Below, one piece after another: positions 4,999 to 12,765 of a stretch of 13,917 nt of DNA. Under the pieces are notes generated by a model. The model was not told where the DNA came from, searched no databases, and saw only the letters and a list, made by a program, of their open reading frames with translations. This DNA is from Sulfurovum sp. Its GTDB lineage: Bacteria; Campylobacterota; Campylobacteria; Campylobacterales; Sulfurovaceae. Position numbers and translations under genes: made by a program. The first letter of the stretch is position 1. Each line of letters begins with the position of its first letter. The stretch lies in contig JAPHUJ010000272.1 of the NCBI GenBank assembly GCA_026193735.1, forward strand, positions 1 through 13,917, in the 5' to 3' direction.

Positions 4999-5652
4999 TT
5001 GGCACGGATACTTGTATTAGAAGATGACAAACTATTCAATGAAACTCTTGAAGATTTTTTAGAAGAAGAGGGGCATATTATACAGTGTGCGTTAGACCCT
5101 TATACTGCACTTGATCTAACCTATGAAAATGTCTTTGATCTGTACCTTTTTGATGTAAATTTACCCTATGAAAATGGATTTGAACTTTTACAGAAGTTAC
5201 GTCAAAGTGGGGATGAAACACCATGTATATTTATCACGTCCAGAGAAGATAAAGCATCGTTGAAAGAGGGGTTTGAAAATGGAGGGGATGATTATATTTA
5301 TAAACCTGTAGATCTGGATGAACTTTTTTTACGTATGCAAGCAGTGCTACGCAGACAGGTACGTAGTCAGATCGTACAGATAGATAGGTATCAGTTTGAT
5401 ATCTTGGCAAAGACACTTTATCAAAATGATAAAGCCCTGGACTTAAGCATTAAAGGGAGTGAACTCCTTTTAGTACTTTTGGAAGGACGGGGAAGAGTGG
5501 TTCCCCTAGATCAAATAAAAGAACGCCTTTGGAGTTCTGCTGAGGAAGCGAGTGACGGAGCATTGAGGGTTTACATCGCTCAACTGAAAAAATATTTCCC
5601 TACGAATATCCACAATGTACGTGGTGTAGGATACCAATTGAGTATAAAATGA
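4999..5652 (+). CDS. OmpR/PhoB-family response regulator (RR1)
   Basis: A cytoplasmic two-component transcription regulator of 217 aa. The receiver domain (about 1-115) has the acidic pair D9/D10, phospho-acceptor D52 in LFDVNLPYENGF, T80 in FITS and K102 in YIYKP. The C-terminal winged-helix domain (about 125-217) ends with RVYIAQLKKYF and VRGVGYQL, the hallmark of OmpR-type DNA binders. The start is TTG 4999, preceded by AAAGAGG at 4985-4991; no other start gives the complete receiver. Its partner kinase HK1 lies 126 bp downstream. It is a paralogue of RR2 (shared NGF..LQ.LR.SG.ETP.IFITS), suggesting tandem duplication. Its target and signal are not shown by the sequence. Confidence 0.92.
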   Translation: MARILVLEDDKLFNETLEDFLEEEGHIIQCALDPYTALDLTYENVFDLYLFDVNLPYENGFELLQKLRQSGDETPCIFITSREDKASLKEGFENGGDDYIYKPVDLDELFLRMQAVLRRQVRSQIVQIDRYQFDILAKTLYQNDKALDLSIKGSELLLVLLEGRGRVVPLDQIKERLWSSAEEASDGALRVYIAQLKKYFPTNIHNVRGVGYQLSIK

Positions 5653-5750
5653 CAAGAATCATAAGTGTTCAAATTCAATGTATAAAGTCACAAAATTATT
5701 TGTGTAAAATTCAGTACAAGAGAGGAACTTCTAGGCTAAAGTCTGATGCA

Positions 5751-5773
5751 ATCCTTTCATTTAGTGAAAGGAT
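5751..5773 (+). promoter_or_regulatory. Hairpin sequestering the HK1 ribosome binding site
   Basis: ATCCTTTCA (5751-5759) and TGAAAGGAT (5765-5773) are perfectly complementary around the 5-nt loop TTTAG. The right arm contains the AAAGGA ribosome binding site (5767-5772) of the HK1 start at 5779. Folding of the mRNA should therefore reduce kinase translation unless the hairpin is opened by heat, a protein, or a ribosome moving through from the in-frame ATG at 5746. Confidence 0.6.
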
Positions 5774-5778
5774 GTAAA

Positions 5779-6624
5779 ATGCTGAGTCGTAAAAAAGAGA
5801 TAATCTTTGCCACAGTTATCTATTTTGTAACAATGTTTACTTTGCTTACTGCAGTGTACCGTTTTTTAGAGACTTGGAAGTCCAATGATCTTAACTTTTT
5901 TATAGCAGGTGCTTTGGTTTTACTTGTGGCAATTGGATGGGGGTACGTTCTTTCTACGCTTATTTTTGCACCTAAAAAACAGATGGAAGATACACTTACT
6001 TCTCTAACAAATGACATTATTCATGAGCTTAACATTCCTCTTTCTACCATAAAAGCAAATACGGCAATGTTAAAAAAAACGATGGAAGATGAAAAGTCTT
6101 TAAAACGTCTTAAACGCATAGAGGATGCCAGTGTGAGACTTAAAAAACTGTATGATGAGCTGGTCTATAGTATTCATAAAGAAATGCATACCATAGAAAA
6201 GGAGCTTTTTGATATACAAGCCTTGGTGGAAGAACGAGTAGAAGTATTTAAAGAACAGAAACGAAATCCGTTTGAACTTATATTAGAACCTTATAAGATA
6301 GAAGCAGACAAGATAGGTTTTGAACAGATGTTTGATAACCTTGTTTCCAATGCCATGAAGTATTCACCTAAAGATACACCTATTCGTGTGACACTGAATA
6401 ATCATATATTAAGTGTGGAAGATGAAGGTGTAGGTATGGGTACAACAGAACTTTTACGTGTACATGAACGATATTATCAGGCAGATGATAAAAAAGATGG
6501 AAAGGGGTTAGGACTTGCTTTGGTCAAAGCATATTGTGATGAAGCAGGGTTAGAAATTCATATCAAGTCTCAAAAAGGTGTAGGTACAAGGCTGAGTTTA
6601 AATCTATCAAAGGTTCATGTTTGA
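5779..6624 (+). CDS. Membrane sensor histidine kinase lacking a periplasmic sensor domain (HK1)
   Basis: A 281-aa inner-membrane kinase expected to phosphorylate RR1. Two membrane segments (about 7-28 and 39-62) are joined by only about ten residues, so there is no room for a periplasmic sensor domain; the signal is probably sensed in the membrane or through a partner. The HisKA motif IIHELNIPLSTIKA holds H82, and the ATPase domain shows N-box FDNLVSNAMKYS, G1 DEGVGMG, F-box RYYQAD and G2 GKGLGLALVKAY. An in-frame ATG at 5746 would add 11 residues but lacks a placed ribosome binding site, whereas ATG 5779 has AAAGGA 6 nt upstream; I chose 5779. Paralogous to HK2 in the catalytic half. It probably shares the transcript of RR1. 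Confidence 0.88.
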   Translation: MLSRKKEIIFATVIYFVTMFTLLTAVYRFLETWKSNDLNFFIAGALVLLVAIGWGYVLSTLIFAPKKQMEDTLTSLTNDIIHELNIPLSTIKANTAMLKKTMEDEKSLKRLKRIEDASVRLKKLYDELVYSIHKEMHTIEKELFDIQALVEERVEVFKEQKRNPFELILEPYKIEADKIGFEQMFDNLVSNAMKYSPKDTPIRVTLNNHILSVEDEGVGMGTTELLRVHERYYQADDKKDGKGLGLALVKAYCDEAGLEIHIKSQKGVGTRLSLNLSKVHV

Positions 6625-6643: not shown

Positions 6644-6675
6644 TTCACGTTTTATTCATTTTAGCATACTACTAT
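6644..6675 (+). promoter_or_regulatory. Tandem 11-bp response-regulator box and -10 for the RR2 operon
   Basis: TTCAC (6644-6648) and TTCAT (6655-6659) start 11 bp apart, each preceded by A. A TACTAT hexamer, 4/6 to the -10 consensus, begins at 6670, 15 bp after the start of the second copy, the same offset as at three other sites in this window. Transcription would start near 6682, before the leader ORF. A short inverted repeat, ACTAC (6668-6672) with GTAGT (6682-6686), overlaps the expected start. This is the weakest of the five boxes in base match. Confidence 0.45.
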
Positions 6676-6701
6676 AGGATTGTAGTAAAAAAGGATTATT
6701 T

Positions 6702-6785
6702 ATGAAATTTAAAATGATATTATTTACTTTGGAAGGGTGGAACAAAGTAGAGGTCCTGTCCTGGCACGTAAAGATGAATAAATGA
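6702..6785 (+). CDS. 27-codon leader ORF overlapping the RR2 start (ATGA)
   Basis: ATG 6702 has AAGGA at 6691-6695 with ideal spacing. The ORF encodes a 27-residue basic peptide that begins MKFKMILFTLEGWNK and ends WHVKMNK; its TGA (6783-6785) overlaps the RR2 ATG (6782-6784). RR2 has only a poor site of its own (AAAGATGA), so a ribosome finishing this ORF probably re-initiates on RR2. It would be the first reading frame on the transcript from the 6670 promoter. I see no known family. It may work by being translated rather than through its product; chance cannot be excluded at this length. Confidence 0.5.
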   Translation: MKFKMILFTLEGWNKVEVLSWHVKMNK

Positions 6786-7450
6786 TAGCAACTATTTTAC
6801 TTCTTGAAGATGACCAGCAGCTTAGCGATACCGTTAAGCAGTTTTTAGAATATCATGGATATGGGGTGCTTTGTGCTTATGATGGAGAACAGGCACAAAA
6901 CATTGCTTATGAAAAACATATAGACTTGATGCTTCTTGATGTTAAGGTACCCCATCAAAATGGTTTTGACTTTTTACAAATCTTGCGTCACAGTGGCGTG
7001 GAAACACCAGCGATCTTCATTACTTCTTTAAACAGTGTGGAAGATGTCACGCGCGGATTTGATAGTGGATGTGATGATTATATACGTAAACCTTTTGCAC
7101 TTAAAGAACTTCTTGTCAGGGTAGAAGCATTACTGAAGCGTCGTTACGGGACATACGATGAAAAGATAGATTTAGGGGAAGGGTTATTGTTTGATATTAA
7201 AGAAACACTTCTGACTAAAAATAACCAAAGAGTAGCGATTAAAACAAAAGAAGCAAAACTCCTTTCTCTTTTTTTAGAATACCCCAATGAACTGTTAACG
7301 TATGATAAAATATTTGAACGTTTATGGAATTATGAAGAGGAACCAAGTGCCGGCAGTTTGAGGTCTTATGTAAAAACGGTACGTTCTTTTCTGGGCAAAG
7401 ACAATGTAGAAACCATTAAAAATGTTGGATATAGATTTGTTAAAGAGTGA
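6782..7450 (+). CDS. OmpR/PhoB-family response regulator (RR2), likely master of the copper-uptake regulon
   Basis: A 222-aa response regulator. The receiver domain (about 1-118) has D10/D11, phospho-acceptor D53 in LLDVKVPHQNGF, T81 in FITS and K103 in YIRKP. The winged-helix domain (about 130-222) carries 'IKTKEAKLLSLFLEYPNELLTYDKIFERLW', described here as the TKEAKLL and YDKIFERLW helices, then SLRSYVKTVRSFL and IKNVGYRFV. The start overlaps the leader ORF stop, and its 3' end overlaps HK2 by 29 nt, so the three reading frames are likely coupled. A tandem 11-bp box lies upstream of its own operon and upstream of DUF2202, tonB and the receptor; I infer that RR2 binds these and activates itself. 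RR1 cannot be ruled out as the binder. Confidence 0.92.
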   Translation: MIATILLLEDDQQLSDTVKQFLEYHGYGVLCAYDGEQAQNIAYEKHIDLMLLDVKVPHQNGFDFLQILRHSGVETPAIFITSLNSVEDVTRGFDSGCDDYIRKPFALKELLVRVEALLKRRYGTYDEKIDLGEGLLFDIKETLLTKNNQRVAIKTKEAKLLSLFLEYPNELLTYDKIFERLWNYEEEPSAGSLRSYVKTVRSFLGKDNVETIKNVGYRFVKE

Positions 7451-8600
7451 AAAGAAGAGTCTGATCCGTTTTTTATTGATCTATTTGGGATCTACCTTTT
7501 TACTTTTTTCTGTCGCTGCATGGATATTTTATACTTCTCAAAAGCATTATCTGATTGACCAGCAAAGAGAGGCGCTTAAGTATCAAGCCCAAACGATAAC
7601 ACAAGAATTAAGAACACTGCATACAACCTATGATAAATCAACACTTATATACCCAGTACATCCGTTGATAGATTCAGCGATTTATGATTTAGATAAACAG
7701 TATATATTCGGAACACAGAAGGAGACAAATCTTTTAGATGAAAAATACTATATGGCCGATGAGAACATACTCTATTCATTAAGTCAAGTTGAGCCATATT
7801 ATATGGGCGCTGCATATTTGCTTGTCAGTAAAAACTTAGATAAAGAACCCATTCTGGAACTTCAAAAAAATATAGGATTATTTCTCTTAGGGGCAGGGGT
7901 ATTTTTTACGATTTTAGGATGGTTCTTAGGTAGACTTTTTATAGCTCCTATGCGTGATTCGATGGAAAGAATGAATCTTTTTATACAAGATACAACCCAT
8001 GAGCTCAATACACCTATCAGTACGATTTTAACAAACATTGAGATGCTGGAAACATTTGGAAAGTGTGAGGAGAATAAAGAATTGAAACGTATCGAGATAG
8101 CTTCTAAATCCTTAAGCCGTATCTATGATGACTTGACGTATTTAAATTTAAATCATAATTATTACAGACATATCGAGTCTCTCGATATGTCTGATCTACT
8201 TAGAGAAAGAATGGTTTATTTCTCTACGATGGCAGAACATAAAGGGTTAATATTGGAAATCAGTATAGATACTGATATTGTATTGGAGATAGATAAAAAT
8301 GATGCAACGCGCCTTGTTGACAACCTTGTCACCAATGCCATAAAATACAATAAACCCAAAGGGCTTTTGAAAGTCAATTTAACCAAAGCGTTTTTATCTG
8401 TGGGTGATACAGGTATAGGTATACAAAAGAAAGATCTAGACAGTATAGTATGTCGTTTTAAACGAGCCAATAAAAGTGAAGGTGGGTTTGGTATAGGACT
8501 GGATATTGTCAATCAGGTTGTCAATAGTTATGGATTTGTTTTAAATATAAATTCAGAACCAGATAAAGGAACGGAGGTAGTCGTAAAATGGACAAAATAA
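7422..8600 (+). CDS. Sensor histidine kinase with periplasmic domain (HK2)
   Basis: An inner-membrane kinase of 392 aa, partner of RR2. A first membrane segment (about 16-37) is followed by a periplasmic region of about 110 residues (38-148) that I cannot assign to a known sensor fold, then a second segment (about 150-175). HisKA motif DTTHELNTPISTI contains H193; the ATPase domain shows N-box DNLVTNAIKYN, G1 DTGIGI and G2 GGFGIGLDIV. ATG 7422 lies inside RR2 without a clear ribosome binding site; a TTG at 7437 would give a 387-aa form with a weak GGA upstream. Either fits translational coupling to RR2. The tyrosine-rich periplasmic loop (YY at 109-110 and 126-127, several M) is where a metal or redox signal could be sensed; this is inference. 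Its end overlaps the haem-protein gene by 13 nt. Confidence 0.92.
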   Translation: MLDIDLLKSEKKSLIRFLLIYLGSTFLLFSVAAWIFYTSQKHYLIDQQREALKYQAQTITQELRTLHTTYDKSTLIYPVHPLIDSAIYDLDKQYIFGTQKETNLLDEKYYMADENILYSLSQVEPYYMGAAYLLVSKNLDKEPILELQKNIGLFLLGAGVFFTILGWFLGRLFIAPMRDSMERMNLFIQDTTHELNTPISTILTNIEMLETFGKCEENKELKRIEIASKSLSRIYDDLTYLNLNHNYYRHIESLDMSDLLRERMVYFSTMAEHKGLILEISIDTDIVLEIDKNDATRLVDNLVTNAIKYNKPKGLLKVNLTKAFLSVGDTGIGIQKKDLDSIVCRFKRANKSEGGFGIGLDIVNQVVNSYGFVLNINSEPDKGTEVVVKWTK

Positions 8601-8944
8601 TTTTGTTATATTTTCTACTGTATGCAGGGCTCTATGCACAAGAGTCCCAAGGTGAAAAACAACAGTTAGAAAACCAATGTTTACAGTGCCATATGAAACA
8701 TCAAATTCCAAATGAATTGATTTATCAACGGTATCTTATGAAATACAGTACAGCTGATGGTATGGGGAAAGCGATAAAAGAGTATTTGAAACATCCTAAA
8801 AAAGAAAACTCTATTATGCCCCTTCCTTTCTTTTTAAAATTTCCTATGAAAGAAGCATTAGTATTAGATGATGAAAATTTAGAAAAAAATATACGTATGT
8901 TTTTAGATATGTATGATGTAAAAAAGAAGTTGGTCCTCCCTTAA
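8588..8944 (+). CDS. Small periplasmic monohaem c-type cytochrome-like protein
   Basis: A 118-aa protein with an N-terminal signal peptide (about 1-17, ending LYA-Q) and one haem c attachment motif, CLQCH (C31, C34, H35). M77 in SIMPLP is a plausible sixth haem ligand, as cytochromes c often have a Met in an M-P loop; the fold is otherwise not one I recognise. The Met- and Lys-rich mature part ends with helical DDENLEKNIRMFLDMYD. ATG 8588 is preceded by a strong GGAGG at 8573-8577, located inside HK2, and the two genes overlap by 13 nt in different frames. That tight linkage suggests it works with HK2, perhaps as a redox or haem-dependent accessory to sensing, or is simply a member of the regulon. 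Confidence 0.82.
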   Translation: MDKIILLYFLLYAGLYAQESQGEKQQLENQCLQCHMKHQIPNELIYQRYLMKYSTADGMGKAIKEYLKHPKKENSIMPLPFFLKFPMKEALVLDDENLEKNIRMFLDMYDVKKKLVLP

Positions 8945-8959
8945 CTTCACTTAGGACAA

Positions 8960-8992
8960 GTTCACGATCGGTTCACACTAAATTATTATAAT
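8960..8992 (+). promoter_or_regulatory. Tandem 11-bp response-regulator box and -10 for the DUF2202 gene
   Basis: Two exact GTTCAC copies (8960-8965 and 8971-8976) are 11 bp apart; the second continues as TTCACACT, one mismatch from the TTAACACT seen at 9747 and 10655. A perfect TATAAT occupies 8987-8992, starting 15 bp after TTCAC of the second copy; another TATAAT follows at 8996-9001. No good -35 is present where the box lies, as expected for an activator-dependent promoter. Confidence 0.6.
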
Positions 8993-9026
8993 TATTATAA
9001 TTAAAAATAGTTAGGAGTGTTGGGAT

Positions 9027-9725
9027 ATGAAAAATGGTTTACTAAAAACTTTGATAGCGACAGGTACAGTTTTGGGTGTAATAGGTTGTGGAGGAGGATC
9101 AACGTCTGGAATTCTGTCCGATGTAGAGATCGCTATAGATGAACCTGTTTCCAAATTGTCTCAAGAGCTGATCGATACACTTGCCTATATGGGGAATGAA
9201 GAGAGACTTGCTTATGATGTCTATAATGCCTTGTATACTCAATACGGGACACAGCAATTTACCAATGTCGCAACCAATGGGGAATATCAACATATCACTG
9301 CGGTGCAAGAGCTTATTCAAAAATATAAACTCAATGATGATGTGAATTTTACCAATGTGGTGGACCCATTGGGATACCTAAATACGCCGATAGAGGCAAT
9401 GGATGCGGGAACATATGATATTCCGGCAATACAATATCTTTATTCTTATTTAATGGGTCTTGCAGTAAATGAGACAGAAGCTTTAAAAGTAGGATGTATC
9501 ATTGAAGTGGTAGATGTCTATGATTTGGATCATGATATCGCACTTGCAGAGGCTGAAGGTGCTACAGACATTGTTACAGTATTTAATTTTTTGCGTGATG
9601 GTAGCTATAGCCATTACTGGGCCTTTGACAAAGGGCTTAAAAACAAAGGTATAATGAATGGGTGTTGTTCTTTAGGTGTCGTAGATGGCGTAGATTACTG
9701 CCATTCTGAGTATCCTCAAAAATAA
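9027..9725 (+). CDS. DUF2202 ferritin-like lipoprotein
   Basis: A 232-aa exported lipoprotein: signal peptide with lipobox VIGC (C21) followed by a GGGSTSG linker. Residues about 45-205 match the DUF2202 ferritin-like helical domain: MGNEERLAYDVY (E58/E59), FTNVATNGEYQHITAV (E86, H89), the PLGYL and LYSYLM segments, VGCIIEVVDVYDLD (E160, D163) and SYSHYWAF (H196). The E and E-x-x-H pairs are the expected di-metal ligands of ferritin-like proteins. The C-terminal tail carries a CC pair (213-214) and CH (225-226), which could bind metal. ATG 9027 has AGGAG at 9013-9017. Function is unknown for this family; location between a predicted copper-type sensor system and a TonB receptor suggests periplasmic metal handling or oxidation. 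Confidence 0.9.
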   Translation: MKNGLLKTLIATGTVLGVIGCGGGSTSGILSDVEIAIDEPVSKLSQELIDTLAYMGNEERLAYDVYNALYTQYGTQQFTNVATNGEYQHITAVQELIQKYKLNDDVNFTNVVDPLGYLNTPIEAMDAGTYDIPAIQYLYSYLMGLAVNETEALKVGCIIEVVDVYDLDHDIALAEAEGATDIVTVFNFLRDGSYSHYWAFDKGLKNKGIMNGCCSLGVVDGVDYCHSEYPQK

Positions 9726-9731
9726 TAAGCT

Positions 9732-9778
9732 AAGTGTTAATTTAGCTTAACACTAAATTAACACTTCTGTGACATACT
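9732..9778 (+). promoter_or_regulatory. TTAACACT repeat cluster with 14-bp inverted repeat and orphan promoter
   Basis: TTAACACT occurs at 9747-9754 and 9758-9765, exactly 11 bp apart, and inverted at 9733-9740. The arrangement creates a perfect 14-bp inverted repeat (9732-9745 with 9753-9766, 7-bp spacer). CATACT at 9773-9778, 4/6 to consensus, begins 15 bp after the second direct copy, as at the tonB site; TCTAAT at 9779-9784 is an alternative. The nearest downstream element is not a gene but the hairpin at 9805-9856. The inverted repeat lacks a following T-run, so I read it as an operator rather than a terminator. Confidence 0.55.
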
Positions 9779-9784
9779 TCTAAT

Positions 9785-9864
9785 ACGTCGAAATAACTTA
9801 AGCTCAGAAGTTGTCTTGTATTTATTTATACCCGATCTAAATACAAAGTTCTTCTGCTCTTTTT
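9785..9864 (+). ncRNA. Candidate response-regulator-controlled small RNA ending in an intrinsic terminator
   Basis: CAGAAG (9805-9810) pairs with CTTCTG (9851-9856), and after a small internal loop TTGTATTTA (9816-9824) pairs perfectly with TAAATACAA (9838-9846), leaving a 13-nt loop that contains TACCCGATC. Five T's follow at 9860-9864. This has terminator shape and could end DUF2202 transcripts. Because a separate box and -10 lie just upstream (9747-9778), a transcript of about 75-80 nt from near 9785 is also possible. No ribosome binding site plus ORF is seen inside. The T-run runs into the next response-regulator box at 9863. Boundaries are estimates. Confidence 0.4.
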
Positions 9865-9894
9865 AACATTTCCTTAACGTTTTTCCGTCATAAT
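9863..9894 (+). promoter_or_regulatory. Tandem 11-bp response-regulator box and -10 for tonB
   Basis: TTAAC at 9863-9867 and 9874-9878 are 11 bp apart. CATAAT (9889-9894, 5/6 to consensus) starts 15 bp after the second copy. Transcription would begin about 9901, leaving a leader of only some 15 nt before the tonB ATG at 9916, with no good ribosome binding site in it. Confidence 0.6.
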
Positions 9895-9915
9895 ACATCC
9901 CAAAAAGACCTTCCT

Positions 9916-10641
9916 ATGCTAAAACATCGTCATTTTATCTCTTATTTTAGCACCACACTTATATACCTATTTGGTGTAAGTACGTTTTTTTATCTACAGA
10001 ACCATTATTTTGTTTCATCACGATCAGAAGAAAAAGTTTTTCAAATGTGTATATCGTGCATTAATCCTGAAGTTATAACTCACATAGAACAGGTCGAGCA
10101 GATAGAAGAGATAGAGCAACCCATTGTTAAAGAAGAACCTGTGGTTGAAGAAAAGCCCGTGGTTGAACCTGAAATAATTAAAGAACCGATCGAGATAAAA
10201 GAAGAGGTTGTTCCTGAGCCTATAGTACCAAAGGTCACACCTAAGCCTGTAGTAGAAGAAGTGAAAAAGAAAGCTAAAGTAAAGAAAAAGACTAAAAAGA
10301 AAACAGTTAAAGAAAATAGACCAAGACAAAAAGCTTCCGCAAGAAAAGCACAAATCAGCCCTGCACAAAAAAATCAATTTCTTGCAAATATAAGAGCTAA
10401 AATAAATAAGCATAAGTCTTACCCTAGGATTGCAAAGAAAAGAGGCATGCAAGGTACAGTTAATGTGAAGTTCACCATTTTAAGCTCTGGAAAAGTGGGG
10501 AATATCTCTGTAAGCGGACCAAAGGTATTTCATAGTTCAGCACGAAATGCAGTTCAAAGTGCTTTCCCCGTCGATGCAAAAAATGCGCCTATTTCATTAC
10601 CGAAGAGCATCAATATTATGCTTCGATATCAAATTAGATAA
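9916..10641 (+). CDS. tonB: TonB energy-transducing protein dedicated to the adjacent receptor
   Basis: TonB is an inner-membrane-anchored periplasmic protein that passes proton-motive energy from ExbB/ExbD to outer-membrane receptors. The 241-aa sequence has one N-terminal membrane segment (about 8-28), a Glu/Pro/Val-rich then Lys-rich spacer (about 58-145) able to span the periplasm, and a TonB C-terminal domain (about 165-241) with YPRIAKKRGMQGTVNVKF, GKVGNISV and the final NIMLRYQI strand. A CISC cysteine pair (C45, C48) just outside the membrane is unusual for TonB. No exbB/exbD are in the window, so it must use ones encoded elsewhere. It has its own promoter and box, and the receptor gene follows 60 bp later. 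ATG 9916 is supported by frame and membrane segment, not by a good ribosome binding site. Confidence 0.92.
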   Translation: MLKHRHFISYFSTTLIYLFGVSTFFYLQNHYFVSSRSEEKVFQMCISCINPEVITHIEQVEQIEEIEQPIVKEEPVVEEKPVVEPEIIKEPIEIKEEVVPEPIVPKVTPKPVVEEVKKKAKVKKKTKKKTVKENRPRQKASARKAQISPAQKNQFLANIRAKINKHKSYPRIAKKRGMQGTVNVKFTILSSGKVGNISVSGPKVFHSSARNAVQSAFPVDAKNAPISLPKSINIMLRYQIR

Positions 10642-10643
10642 AT

Positions 10644-10678
10644 TTAATACATAATTAACACTACTACGCCAATATAAT
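10644..10678 (+). promoter_or_regulatory. Tandem 11-bp response-regulator box and -10 for the TonB-dependent receptor
   Basis: TTAAT (10644-10648) and TTAAC (10655-10659) start 11 bp apart; the second is part of a full TTAACACT (10655-10662). A perfect TATAAT is at 10673-10678, 18 bp after the start of the second copy, 3 bp further than in the other four boxes. The receptor start at 10702 has AGGAG at 10691-10695. The box sits immediately after the tonB stop codon. Confidence 0.6.
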
Positions 10679-10701: not shown

Positions 10702-12765
10702 ATGAAAAAGGGAATTTACCTCTCTTTGGCATGTTCATTATTGTTGAATGCTGCCGAAGTAGAGTTGGAAACGATAAATATAGATACAAATGTTGATACA
10801 GAAGTCATAAAAGATGTCAGCGGGGAAGATATCAAATCAGCTGACTTGGGAGAAGCACTGTTCAAACAGTCAGCAAGTGTGTCACTTGTGAGAAGATCTG
10901 GTATTGCGAATGACATTATTCTTAGAGGACAAAAAAAGGACAACATTAATATCACGATAGACGGCGCAAAAGTATATGGTGCATGTCCAAATAGAATGGA
11001 CCCACCAGTTTCTCATGTTTTGACAAATAATGTGGATTATATCGAGATCAATGAAGGTCCATTCAATGTGGAAGATTTTGGTTCGTTAAGCGGAGATGTA
11101 AAGATACATACGATCAAACCAGAAAAAGAGTTTACAGGAGAAGTAAATCTTGGTCTTGGTAGCTGGGGATATCTGAAAGAAGCATTTTCTTTGAGTGGAG
11201 GTACGGATAAAGTAAGATTTTTACTCTCTGGTTCAAACGAAACAAGTGAGCAGTATGAAGATGGTGATGGTAATGATTTTGTAGAACAGATCGCACGTAA
11301 TATTGCAGATGGTACAGCCCCTATGGGTGCACAATATCAGCCTGCATATAGAGATATGGATGCTTATACTAAAAAGACATTGATGGCAAAACTTTTTTGG
11401 GATATTACTGACAATCAAGAGCTAAGATTGAGTTATACGGCTAACCGAAGTGATGATGTACTTTATCCATCTTCTAAAATGGATGCACTCTATGATGATT
11501 CAGATATTTATAATATGGAGTATATTGCTAAAGACTTAGGGACTTATTCTAAAGAATTAAATTTTCAAGTTTATCAATCAGAAGTAGACCATCCTATGTC
11601 GACCAGATACAGAATGATGTCTGATAGTAACAGTTCTGATGGTATTTTTGATTCAAATAAGGCGATGACCCATGCTCTTACCACTAAGATGCAAGGTGCA
11701 AAACTTTCAAACCGTTTTGATGTTGATAATCACGCATTTACTGTAGGGCTAGATTATAGTTTAAGAAACTGGGATGGTGCGTACTATGCAATGGATGGGA
11801 AAACATTCGTTGGTACAAGTATTAATGATGTAGATACAAAAAACTATGCGTTCTTTCTCAAAGATGAGATTAAAATGGATAAATTAACATTGGATCTTGG
11901 GTTGAGATATGATGATACAGAGATCACTACCAAGGATACTTTGCTACCTGCTGCACAACAAGAAAATGACTACAATGAACTTAATGGATATATTTTTGGA
12001 ACATACCATGCAAATGAAACCACTAAGTATTTTGCAGGTTTAGGTAAGTCATCTAGAGTGCCTGATGCAAGAGAACTTTACTTTAGAAAAGTCAATATGA
12101 CTACTATGCCGGCAACACATCCACTTGTAGGCACACCGACTTTGAAAAACACAGTGAATTATGAACTTGATATAGGTGCTGAAAAGAAATATGAAAATGC
12201 AGCCATTAAAGCAAAAGCATTTTATAGTAAATTAGATGATTTCATTGCCTATAATGCCAATAAGACGACTAACGTTTTTGAAAATGTAGATGCAACGATA
12301 TGGGGCTTAGAAGTGAGTGGAACATATATCGCAACAGATACACTTTATTTTGATTATGGGATGTCTTACCAAAGAGGGAAGAAAGAGAATCCTCTAAGTG
12401 GACAAACCGATACTGACATGCCGGAAATCCCACCATTTAAACTTAATGCAGCAGCAAATTATGATTATGATGAGAGTTTGGTACTACGAGCGGAAGTGAT
12501 AGCTTCTGATAAGTGGACAGACTTTGATGCAGATAATGGTGAACAGGAATTAGATGCCTATGCCGTACTTAATCTCAAAGGAACAAAACAATTTGGTAAA
12601 AACTTTGAACTTGTAGTAGGTGTAGATAATGTGTTTGACAAAACATATGCAGTATCAAATACCTATAAAGATTTGACTTTGCTTGCTGATGATCCTGATC
12701 TAAATGTTATGCTCATAAATGAACCTGGACGTTATATTTATACGAACATAAAATATAAATTCTAA
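10702..12765 (+). CDS. TonB-dependent outer-membrane receptor, OprC/NosA-like copper type
   Basis: A 687-aa outer-membrane beta-barrel receptor. It has a signal peptide (about 1-18, ending LLNAA), a TonB-box-like ELETINI soon after, a plug domain (about 35-140: VRRSGIANDIILRG, NINITIDGAKVYG, VDYIEINEGP, GSLSGDV) and a barrel ending in aromatic F (YIYTNIKYKF). In the plug, GACPNRMDPP contains C95 and M99; in an extracellular-loop-like stretch DHPMSTRYRMM contains H297 and M299. In OprC of Pseudomonas the copper site is a CxxxM in the plug plus an HxM in the barrel, so both halves are present here. Further Met/His-rich sequence (MTTMPATHP, 466-474) could guide copper. Family knowledge makes copper the likely cargo; nothing in the sequence alone proves it. 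It is expressed from its own promoter and served by the adjacent TonB. Confidence 0.92.
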   Translation: MKKGIYLSLACSLLLNAAEVELETINIDTNVDTEVIKDVSGEDIKSADLGEALFKQSASVSLVRRSGIANDIILRGQKKDNINITIDGAKVYGACPNRMDPPVSHVLTNNVDYIEINEGPFNVEDFGSLSGDVKIHTIKPEKEFTGEVNLGLGSWGYLKEAFSLSGGTDKVRFLLSGSNETSEQYEDGDGNDFVEQIARNIADGTAPMGAQYQPAYRDMDAYTKKTLMAKLFWDITDNQELRLSYTANRSDDVLYPSSKMDALYDDSDIYNMEYIAKDLGTYSKELNFQVYQSEVDHPMSTRYRMMSDSNSSDGIFDSNKAMTHALTTKMQGAKLSNRFDVDNHAFTVGLDYSLRNWDGAYYAMDGKTFVGTSINDVDTKNYAFFLKDEIKMDKLTLDLGLRYDDTEITTKDTLLPAAQQENDYNELNGYIFGTYHANETTKYFAGLGKSSRVPDARELYFRKVNMTTMPATHPLVGTPTLKNTVNYELDIGAEKKYENAAIKAKAFYSKLDDFIAYNANKTTNVFENVDATIWGLEVSGTYIATDTLYFDYGMSYQRGKKENPLSGQTDTDMPEIPPFKLNAAANYDYDESLVLRAEVIASDKWTDFDADNGEQELDAYAVLNLKGTKQFGKNFELVVGVDNVFDKTYAVSNTYKDLTLLADDPDLNVMLINEPGRYIYTNIKYKF

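Follow-up and report, generated by a model that had tools for sequence, protein, structure and literature searches.

RNAs that spare a metal are best known for iron: small RNAs of the RyhB type are induced by scarcity, from a promoter controlled by Fur, and silence abundant users of the metal. In the small RNA RepG, the terminator loop has a role in contacting the target. Here we analyze a contig of Sulfurovum sp. (JAPHUJ010000272.1; 13,917 nucleotides, which we will call the window) that encodes two two-component systems, each with a response regulator (RR1 or RR2) and a histidine kinase (HK1 or HK2), and a TonB-dependent receptor that is probably for copper. The window also contains five tandem boxes that look like binding sites for response regulators, and one of these boxes appears to drive a small RNA that is complementary to the mRNA of a terminal oxidase. 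Parts of this arrangement have described counterparts. The PHO box is described as two 11-nt direct repeats (PMC4415409), and in Pseudomonas the receptor OprC is under the control of CueR (PMC7558416). Within the Campylobacterota, DccRS and PhosRS of Campylobacter jejuni are systems of the OmpR family (PMC9449129), and RepG of Helicobacter pylori targets a G-repeat (PMC8295292).

We propose, as a reading that is on balance probable, that HK1 and RR1 drive a copper-scarcity regulon with TTAAC boxes, including an RNA that silences the aa3 oxidase, and that RR2 has a circuit of its own with TTCAY boxes. In this model, RR1 (a PhoB-type regulator), most likely signalled by HK1, would activate TTAAC-N6-TTAAC boxes when copper is scarce. 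These boxes lie at about -38/-27 before an extended -10 element (TGnnATAmT), with no -35 element, and would switch on genes for an OprC-like receptor, TonB, and ExbB, operons with NosL, DsbD_2, and a gene for cytochrome-c assembly. The promoter at 9747 would yield an RNA of ~78 nt whose 5' end (GUCGAAAUAA) would pair with codons 4-7 of coxI, the message for subunit I of the copper-containing aa3 oxidase, block its translation, and so spare copper. The TTCAY-N6-TTCAY boxes before RR2 and DUF2202 would belong to RR2, which would regulate itself.

Computation shows the boxes, their conservation, their division into two classes, the gene content of the regulon, and the complementarity and covariation of the RNA with coxI; we propose, going beyond these results, that RR1 is the protein that binds, that copper is the signal, that the RNA is transcribed, and that repression results. 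The firmest new parts are the two-class split and the pairing of the RNA with coxI; the softest are the roles of RR1 and of copper. It is only tentatively, at not quite even confidence, that we would describe the whole as a bacterial copper-sparing small RNA, in which a copper-scarcity two-component system drives both uptake and an RNA that silences the aa3 oxidase, with the RNA and codon 4 of coxI evolving together across species of Sulfurovum.

The window is contig C339 of its genome (G000, hereafter the own genome; 1.7 Mb, 78% complete, 357 contigs). Its gene order is mraY, gpmI, a small open reading frame (ORF), fabG, a membrane protein, RR1, HK1, RR2, HK2, a small CxxCH protein, DUF2202, tonB, the receptor, and acpP. 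(From the look of the sequences, we take four of these to be mraY, gpmI, fabG, and acpP.) The features that we discuss are:

4999..5652, + strand: RR1, response regulator of the OmpR family and proposed activator of the TTAAC boxes (Pfam Response_reg and Trans_reg_C; its own clade in the tree)
5746..6624, + strand: HK1, histidine kinase, partner of RR1 by position (HisKA and HATPase_c)
6644..6659, + strand: class B box TTCAC-N6-TTCAT before RR2 (pattern search and relatives' loci)
6782..7450, + strand: RR2, response regulator of the OmpR family and proposed regulator of the TTCAY boxes, including its own (Pfam; a distinct clade)
7422..8600, + strand: HK2, histidine kinase, partner of RR2 by position (Pfam)
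8588..8944, + strand: small CxxCH-containing protein encoded with RR2 and HK2 (from its sequence; adjoins HK2 in many relatives)
8961..8976, + strand: class B box TTCAC-N6-TTCAC before DUF2202, with TATAAT beginning 15 nt downstream of the first base of the second copy
9027..9725, + strand: DUF2202 protein (PF09968)
9747..9762, + strand: class A box TTAAC-N6-TTAAC, which we propose as part of the promoter of the small RNA
9773..9778, + strand: CATACT, -10 element of the proposed small RNA promoter
9785..9864, + strand: predicted small RNA (~78 nt) with a hairpin and a T-run at its end
9787..9796, + strand: GTCGAAATAA, proposed region of pairing with coxI codons 4-7
9863..9878, + strand: class A box before tonB, overlapping the T-run of the small RNA
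9889..9894, + strand: CATAAT, -10 element of tonB
9916..10641, + strand: tonB (PF03544)
10644..10659, + strand: class A box TTAAT-N6-TTAAC before the receptor
10673..10678, + strand: TATAAT, -10 element of the receptor promoter
10702..12765, + strand: OprC/NosA-like TonB-dependent receptor, probably for copper (nearest solved structures are OprC; CxxxM and HxM motifs)

No Pfam or NCBIfam family matched the small CxxCH protein. Read by eye, HK1 (5746-6624) crosses the membrane twice and exposes only a very short loop outside, so its sensing may take place inside the membrane.

Conserved tandem boxes of two classes

The initial annotation of this stretch described five pairs of TTMAC pentamers with 11-bp spacing. 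All ten pentamers are present at the positions it gave, and most of them fit TTMAC; two are looser (TTCAT at 6655 and TTAAT at 10644). The octamer TTAACACT occurs four times as described, at 9747, 9758, and 10655 on the + strand and inverted at 9740-9733, with a one-mismatch form (TTCACACT) before DUF2202 at 8972. We also read the same offsets to the -10 elements by eye (15, 15, 15, 15, and 18 nt). TTMAY-N6-TTMAY has seven matches on the + strand of the window (five intergenic and two intragenic) and none on the - strand, and the distances between intergenic copies are 11 (five times) and 10, 15, 21, and 26 (once each). (At 9733-9766, the inverted TTAACACT forms a hairpin that overlaps the 9747 box; G003 and G026 do not have the inverted copy.)

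Conservation at orthologous loci had been set beforehand as a test of the boxes, and they passed it. We fetched these loci from relatives and sought TTMAY-N6-TTMAY upstream of each gene, counting matches that begin no later than residue 6 of the query with >35% identity (>60% for RR2 in the one-per-genome and RR2 counts) and that have at least 60 nt (per locus) or 100 nt (one per genome) of upstream sequence. With one locus per genome, we found the box before 45/46 receptors, 24/30 tonB genes, 11/12 DUF2202 genes, and 17/37 RR2 genes. Per locus, the counts are 46/47, 24/31, 12/13, and 19/39, and 3/21 for a hypothetical gene (hyp); among the 39 rows for RR2, L156 is a duplicate stretch and L153 is a gene like that for RR3, a paralogous regulator described below. 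RR1, acpP, and gpmI, where the initial annotation saw no pair, do not have one in the relatives either (0/29, 0/18, and 0/15 per locus), and neither do fabG (0/29), HK1 (0/2), HK2 (0/42), or the CxxCH gene (0/36). Counting one locus per genome likewise gave no pair for RR1 (0/29), acpP, gpmI, or fabG.

The spacing and the promoter layout are conserved as well. Before receptors, the spacer is N6 in 45/46; eleven other spacers give 0-3 matches each, the reverse strand gives 4, and the expectation from shuffling is 0.67. We aligned 72 TTAA[CT] pairs found upstream of tonB and receptor genes. In 58 of them, the -10 element begins 15 nt downstream of the first base of the second copy, and the T and the G of an extended -10 element are each present in 56. 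Given the 11-bp spacing, the fixed -10, and the extended -10, the boxes look like an operator plus a promoter without a -35 element. This supports the earlier description of tandem operator-like boxes of the PhoB/OmpR type, with an 11-bp period, in the -35 position upstream of the named units. Two regulators with a receiver domain (PF00072) and a winged-helix domain (PF00486), RR1 and RR2, are encoded near the boxes.

The initial annotation also placed all five boxes in one regulon under RR2, and this is not supported. Instead, the sites form two classes: TTCAY (before RR2 and DUF2202) and TTAAC (at 9747 and before tonB and the receptor). With one locus per genome, the pairs are TTAAy/TTAAy at 45/46 receptors and 22/30 tonB genes (another 2 are TTCAy/TTAAy), and they are TTCAy/TTCAy at 16/37 RR2 genes (with 1 hybrid) and 8/12 DUF2202 genes (with 3 hybrids).

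The 37 regions upstream of RR2 comprise 16 with TTCAY pairs, 4 with one-mismatch TTCAY pairs, 6 with TTGAY-N6-TTGAY, and 11 with neither. (By eye, several of these 11 directly follow a coding stretch.) TTGAY pairs occur in 0/283 other upstream regions. The six genomes whose RR2 box is TTGAT-N6-TTGAT are G015, G050, G049, G002, G008, and G023 (L136, L138-L141, and L143); the three of their RR2 proteins that we placed in a tree belong to one RR2 subclade, and in all four of the six genomes where the receptor box is readable, it is still TTAAC. RR2's own site is evolving apart from the receptor's site. Because the box of RR2 became TTGAY in these six genomes, and with TTCAY pairs before 16/37 RR2 genes, it is likely that RR2 regulates itself, as first suggested.

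The genome-wide scan that was proposed with the initial annotation gave a mixed answer. Searching the own genome with the loose pattern TTMAYN6TTMAC gave only a weak enrichment (66 matches versus 46 for the reversed control). We dropped this matrix as unspecific; many of the matches that we read were intragenic. TTCAYN6TTCAY is not enriched over the own genome (46 versus 46 for the reversed control). The stricter TTAACAN5TTAAC is enriched in the genomes of five good relatives (36 matches versus 6), and its 8 matches in the own genome are all intergenic, one of them reaching into the final bases of a gene.

Two other sites in the own genome involve the TTCAY class. On contig C313 (L222:1966), TTCATACT-N3-TTCATACT lies 46 nt before a gene for a 640-amino-acid di-haem peroxidase (CCP_MauG), which is a candidate TTCAY target outside the window. 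On contig C69 (L190:62 and 136), a TTAAC pair and a TTCAT pair share one upstream region, whose gene is cut by the end of the contig.

A predicted small RNA upstream of tonB

One of the five boxes had been described as preceding a gene-free hairpin. The box is indeed present at 9747, and we reread it as the promoter of a predicted small RNA. Downstream of the box are CATACT, GTCGAAATAA (9787-9796), and a hairpin with a T-run that extends into the tonB box, and this stretch looks like a small RNA. The predicted small RNA shares the TTAAC type of promoter with the uptake genes, and we infer its regulator and its signal. The pattern TTAACN18-45GTCGAAATAA matched 16 genomes, and in nine of these (the own genome included) there is a TTAACAC promoter before tonB; the other seven matches look like chance. 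The reversed control gave 0 matches in eight of these nine genomes, 1 in G059, and up to 5 per genome in other genera. A gene with GTCGAAATAA lies by tonB in 14 of the 78 genomes of the genus, with G046, G101, G105, G107, and G116 added by a wider search; G038 has a variant RNA and G043 has a degenerate copy. Most copies have the hairpin and the T-run (these are not clear in G007), and the hairpins vary in length and sequence, often with a C-rich loop. An Rfam search of the window found no family at the small RNA; a chance match to SCARNA7 elsewhere scored 17.4 bits versus 65.

Some features of these copies count against our reading. We found no TTAAC box within 60 nt upstream of the copy in G046, and the copy in G101 has no clear T-run. 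The hairpin in the window is only modestly stable (z -1.72). The six long copies fold to a consensus of 22 pairs with 2 compensatory pairs and several broken ones, so the support from structure is modest.

This would also fit with the 9747 promoter making only a leader for tonB (a long 5' UTR or an attenuator), in which case GTCGAAATAA would be a promoter or leader element without a target in trans. Moreover, 9747 is upstream of tonB, and some genomes have a single box 97-143 nt before tonB. Yet the hairpin and T-run precede a second tonB box in G000, G003, G006, and G026, and the motif matches coxI in 12/12 genomes read and covaries with it at codon 4 (see below), which makes a mere leader unlikely.

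On contig C235 of the own genome (L188, near 1945-1974), there is another TTAAC box, again with CATACT at this offset, and after it an ORF-free stretch with a terminator-like hairpin and a T-run (by eye). This stretch is possibly a second small RNA of the regulon.

The predicted small RNA is complementary to the start of coxI

We found that GUCGAAAUAA, at the 5' end of the predicted RNA, matches as an antisense sequence codons 4-7 of the coxI mRNA of the aa3 oxidase in 12/12 genomes where both were read. The contiguous pairs number 13 in each of G003, G026, G105, G107, G116, G012, G021, G059, and G030; 11 in G007 and G046; and 16 in G101. The target gene belongs to COX1 (PF00115, 504 bits) and is CtaD/CoxA-like (621 bits for TIGR02891 versus a cut-off of 671, with a truncated query). 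In ten genomes, the antisense sequence TTATTTCGAC occurs at 26 places: nine RNA genes, eight coxI starts, two RidA-like starts, and seven others. The eight coxI starts (from eight genomes) read MSK(T/S)YFDETH..., with the match at codons 4-7. This search gave no coxI site in G000 and G006 because the start is off the contig in G000 and G006 gave no coxI. (The RidA-like gene starts with TTATTTCGAC are in L334 from G003 and L353 from G026; they could be a second target or chance.)

Furthermore, the RNA varies along with codon 4. The codon and the corresponding part of the RNA are ACT and AAGTT in G012, TCT and AAGAT in G021, AGT and AACTT in G059 and G030, and TCT and AAGATTTA in G101. Permuting the partners among the 12 genomes reduced the summed pairs from 155 to a mean of 141 (p = 0.0008, or p = 0.005 with the G003 clade reduced to one; collapsing one clade is the only way that kinship was handled in the covariation and co-occurrence statistics). 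This test left out G000 and G006, which have no readable coxI start, and G038, with its variant RNA. For the 7 genomes in which the RNA (by the TTAACN18-45GTCGAAATAA pattern) and coxI (by its protein) were found independently of the match, p = 0.0095 (0.017 when collapsed).

The RNA and its putative target also tend to occur together. We found coxI in 20/61 genomes, including the own genome; it is present in 9/10 genomes with the RNA and 11/51 without it (p = 8e-5, uncorrected for kinship). In the protein-based set, a perfect 10-mer is present in 8/8 genomes with the RNA and 3/9 without it (p = 0.009; this comparison left out G038 and the distant coxI of G028). With four more RNA-bearing genomes and G104, which were seen because they match, these become 12/12 versus 4/10 (p = 0.003). 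The predicted duplex of the first 22 nt of the RNA with coxI has an energy of -15.2 to -22.6 kcal/mol, and at 58 other gene starts from ten RNA-bearing genomes, we found none below -13.3 kcal/mol and no run over 8.

When an RNA pairs with start-proximal codons, within the ribosome's footprint, the usual outcome is repression. Pairing over codons 4-7 lies within this footprint, so repression is the natural inference, and the RNA would block the translation of coxI.

Several results weigh against this reading. The start of the own genome's coxI is beyond the end of a contig (on C214, the match begins at residue 29), and the pairing is known from relatives only; for codon 4 of this coxI, our model predicts AGT. 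The bare antisense 10-mer is not enriched in the ten genomes (26 places versus 74 for the reversed control). G007 and G046 (2/12) have a mismatch at the covarying dinucleotide. Four genomes (G101, G105, G107, and G116) came from a search with GTCGAAATAASW, in which only matching coxI starts can appear. (We opened part of the other GTCGAAATAASW places, and these have no TTAAC pair upstream.) RNAs with a changed seed (G038 and the copy in G043) were not counted as RNA-bearing, which is a selection. Genomes without the RNA often keep the perfect 10-mer (3/9, or 4/10 with G104). Finally, with 36 nt of the RNA, at least one of 300 shuffled targets pairs more strongly in G012, G105, and G107 (3/12).

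Two of these results, the perfect 10-mer in RNA-less genomes and its lack of enrichment over the reversed control, would be expected if the complementarity were a by-product of conserved Y-F-D codons together with a short chance seed. Indeed, TAT TTY GAC is present in 18/19 readable coxI starts of the genus, with or without the RNA (the distant G028 differs). However, the match is 13-16 nt long, reaches into codon 4, which varies, and tracks this codon (ACT, TCT, or AGT) among G012, G021, and G059, whose RNAs are otherwise alike, and there is no comparable match at the 58 other gene starts. We therefore consider a by-product to be quite unlikely and favor pairing of the RNA with coxI.

The putative TTAAC regulon and its probable link to copper

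Judging from the genes behind its boxes, which include NosL, ExbB, DsbD_2, and ResB genes, the TTAAC regulon has a copper and cytochrome theme. In the own genome, TTAAC boxes lie upstream of a second TonB receptor (by 45 nt), DsbD_2 (47 nt), a ResB-like gene (41 nt), and a NosL-NosL-FtsX-ABC-...-DsbD_2 run (45 nt). Among the matches listed, 24/30 NosL loci have a TTAAC box (48 genomes have a NosL match). As for the six loci without a strict TTAAC pair, four (G001, G028, G036, and G047) are directly behind the receptor, and G038 has TTAAC/TTAAT. We also opened 30 of the 36 TTAACAN5TTAAC sites in the five good relatives. DsbD_2 is behind a TTAAC box in G000, G003, G028, G040, and G050 (identified by Pfam in G040 and by the same opening residues in the other relatives). 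ExbB is behind one in G003 and G028 (both over the cut-off of TIGR02805) and probably, from its opening residues, in G034. ResB is behind one in G000 and G003 and NosL in G050, and further TonB receptors were found as well.

The receptor in the window has a TonB plug (PF07715) and a barrel (PF00593), and a 79%-identical relative is on a contig of Sulfurovum sp. AR. Its closest solved structures are OprC, and it has CxxxM at 95-99 (C95/M99) and HxM at 297-299 (H297/M299), which correspond to the ligands of the copper site in OprC (PMC8610252). CxxxM is present in 106/108 distinct receptors and HxM in 108/108. Because the receptor falls below the cut-off of TIGR01778, we describe it as OprC-like and not as OprC. 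NosL is a Cu(I) protein that is needed under copper limitation (PMC7558416). Given an OprC-like receptor with copper ligands and NosL, the likeliest signal for the TTAAC boxes is scarcity of copper. Three points detract from this assignment: the receptor's score (194.3 bits versus 472.45 for TIGR01778), the several TTAAC sites that precede genes without a clear link to copper, and the nature of the argument for the signal, which is guilt by association.

Which regulator acts at the TTAAC boxes

Judged by best E-value, 21 of the 60 same-genus relatives have no ortholog of RR2. The receptor's TTAAC box is kept in 15 of the 16 of these that are readable, and the sixteenth (G010) has a one-mismatch form. 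Since the TTAAC boxes persist without RR2, and remain TTAAC where the box of RR2 is TTGAT, the boxes that fit RR2 are those of the TTCAY class, upstream of RR2 itself and of DUF2202. It is true that RR2 is encoded in this block behind a box of its own, and that all five boxes share the 11-bp layout, as expected if RR2 activated itself, DUF2202, tonB, and the receptor. But with two classes of boxes, TTAAC boxes in 15/16 readable genomes without RR2 and in 4/4 readable TTGAY genomes, and many fetched RR2 stretches without a receptor in reach, a single RR2 regulon is highly improbable.

RR1, which itself has no box (0/29), is a better candidate for the TTAAC class and gives the best fit. It has a match at E <= 1.4e-79 in 57 of the 60 relatives, and RR1-HK1 adjoins tonB and the receptor in many genomes. 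G040 (99% complete) encodes seven Trans_reg_C proteins, of which six could be placed; RR1 is among them, and the receptor and DsbD_2 boxes are intact. No regulator of the RR2 or RR3 clade is among these six of the seven.

RR3 is encoded on contig C146 of the own genome, in a paralogous thioredoxin-RR3-HK3-small-ORF run (L187:3614-6181) that mirrors RR2-HK2-CxxCH. RR3 might bind the TTAAC boxes, alone or with RR1, with the RNA and copper parts of the model unchanged. In Sulfurimonas-type loci (L049, L053, and L097), regulators of the RR3 clade adjoin OprC-like receptors, and most genomes of the genus have a match at RR3's level of similarity. We nevertheless consider RR3 an unlikely binder because of G040, where TTAAC boxes remain but none of the six regulators placed (of seven) belongs to the RR3 clade, and because it is RR1-HK1 that adjoins tonB and the receptor in many genomes. 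G051 and G020 also do not have a close match to RR2 or RR3, but these genomes are incomplete.

Returning to RR1, two observations do not sit well with it as the regulator. G010 has no match to RR1 at E <= 1e-40, yet it has the one-mismatch receptor box. In the Sulfurimonas-type loci of other genera, RR3-clade regulators adjoin receptors whose boxes read TTAACACTnnTGTAAC. (We had considered that G010 might have no receptor box to go with its missing RR1 match, and we rejected this because of the one-mismatch box.) The 11-bp variant TTAACACTnnTGTAAC was seen at other Campylobacterota receptors in L049, L053, L063, L070, L082, L091, and L097, some of them beside an RR3-clade regulator.

Comparison with known systems

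If our reading is true, a copper small RNA would tie the supply of copper to which terminal oxidase is used, and to copper handling of the NosL type, in Sulfurovum and its kin, and codon 4 of coxI should track the RNA in every new genome. More generally, tandem boxes that are nearly identical and lie in one block can still answer to two different regulators, a point of importance when regulons are predicted from a single genome. Among the matches listed, the open-access literature that we searched held no bacterial copper-sparing small RNA. The literature searched gave no box sequence for PhosR or DccR and did not confirm TTCAC-N6-TTCAC as the DccR box. DccRS and PhosRS are from the same phylum and the same family of regulators as the systems in the window, but the gene content differs.

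As in the pho box of PhoB, the putative boxes are tandem head-to-tail repeats with an 11-nt period upstream of a -10 element. In contrast to the pho box, the repeats here are TTAACAC or TTCAYAC instead of CTGTCAT, and the genes behind them are for metals and cytochromes, not for phosphate. The receptor resembles OprC/NosA, which is its best match among solved structures, and has the CxxxM-HxM ligands; it differs in its score (194 bits versus a cut-off of 472) and in its proposed control by a two-component system, instead of by CueR as in Pseudomonas. Like RepG, the predicted RNA would be a trans-acting RNA of the Campylobacterota, with a C-rich hairpin loop in several genomes, but the covarying contact is at its 5' end instead of in the terminator loop. 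Finally, like RyhB, it is predicted to be induced by scarcity and to silence an abundant user of the scarce metal. In contrast to RyhB, the metal would be copper instead of iron, the promoter would respond to a response regulator instead of Fur, the target would lie inside codons 4-7, and the RNA is from another phylum.

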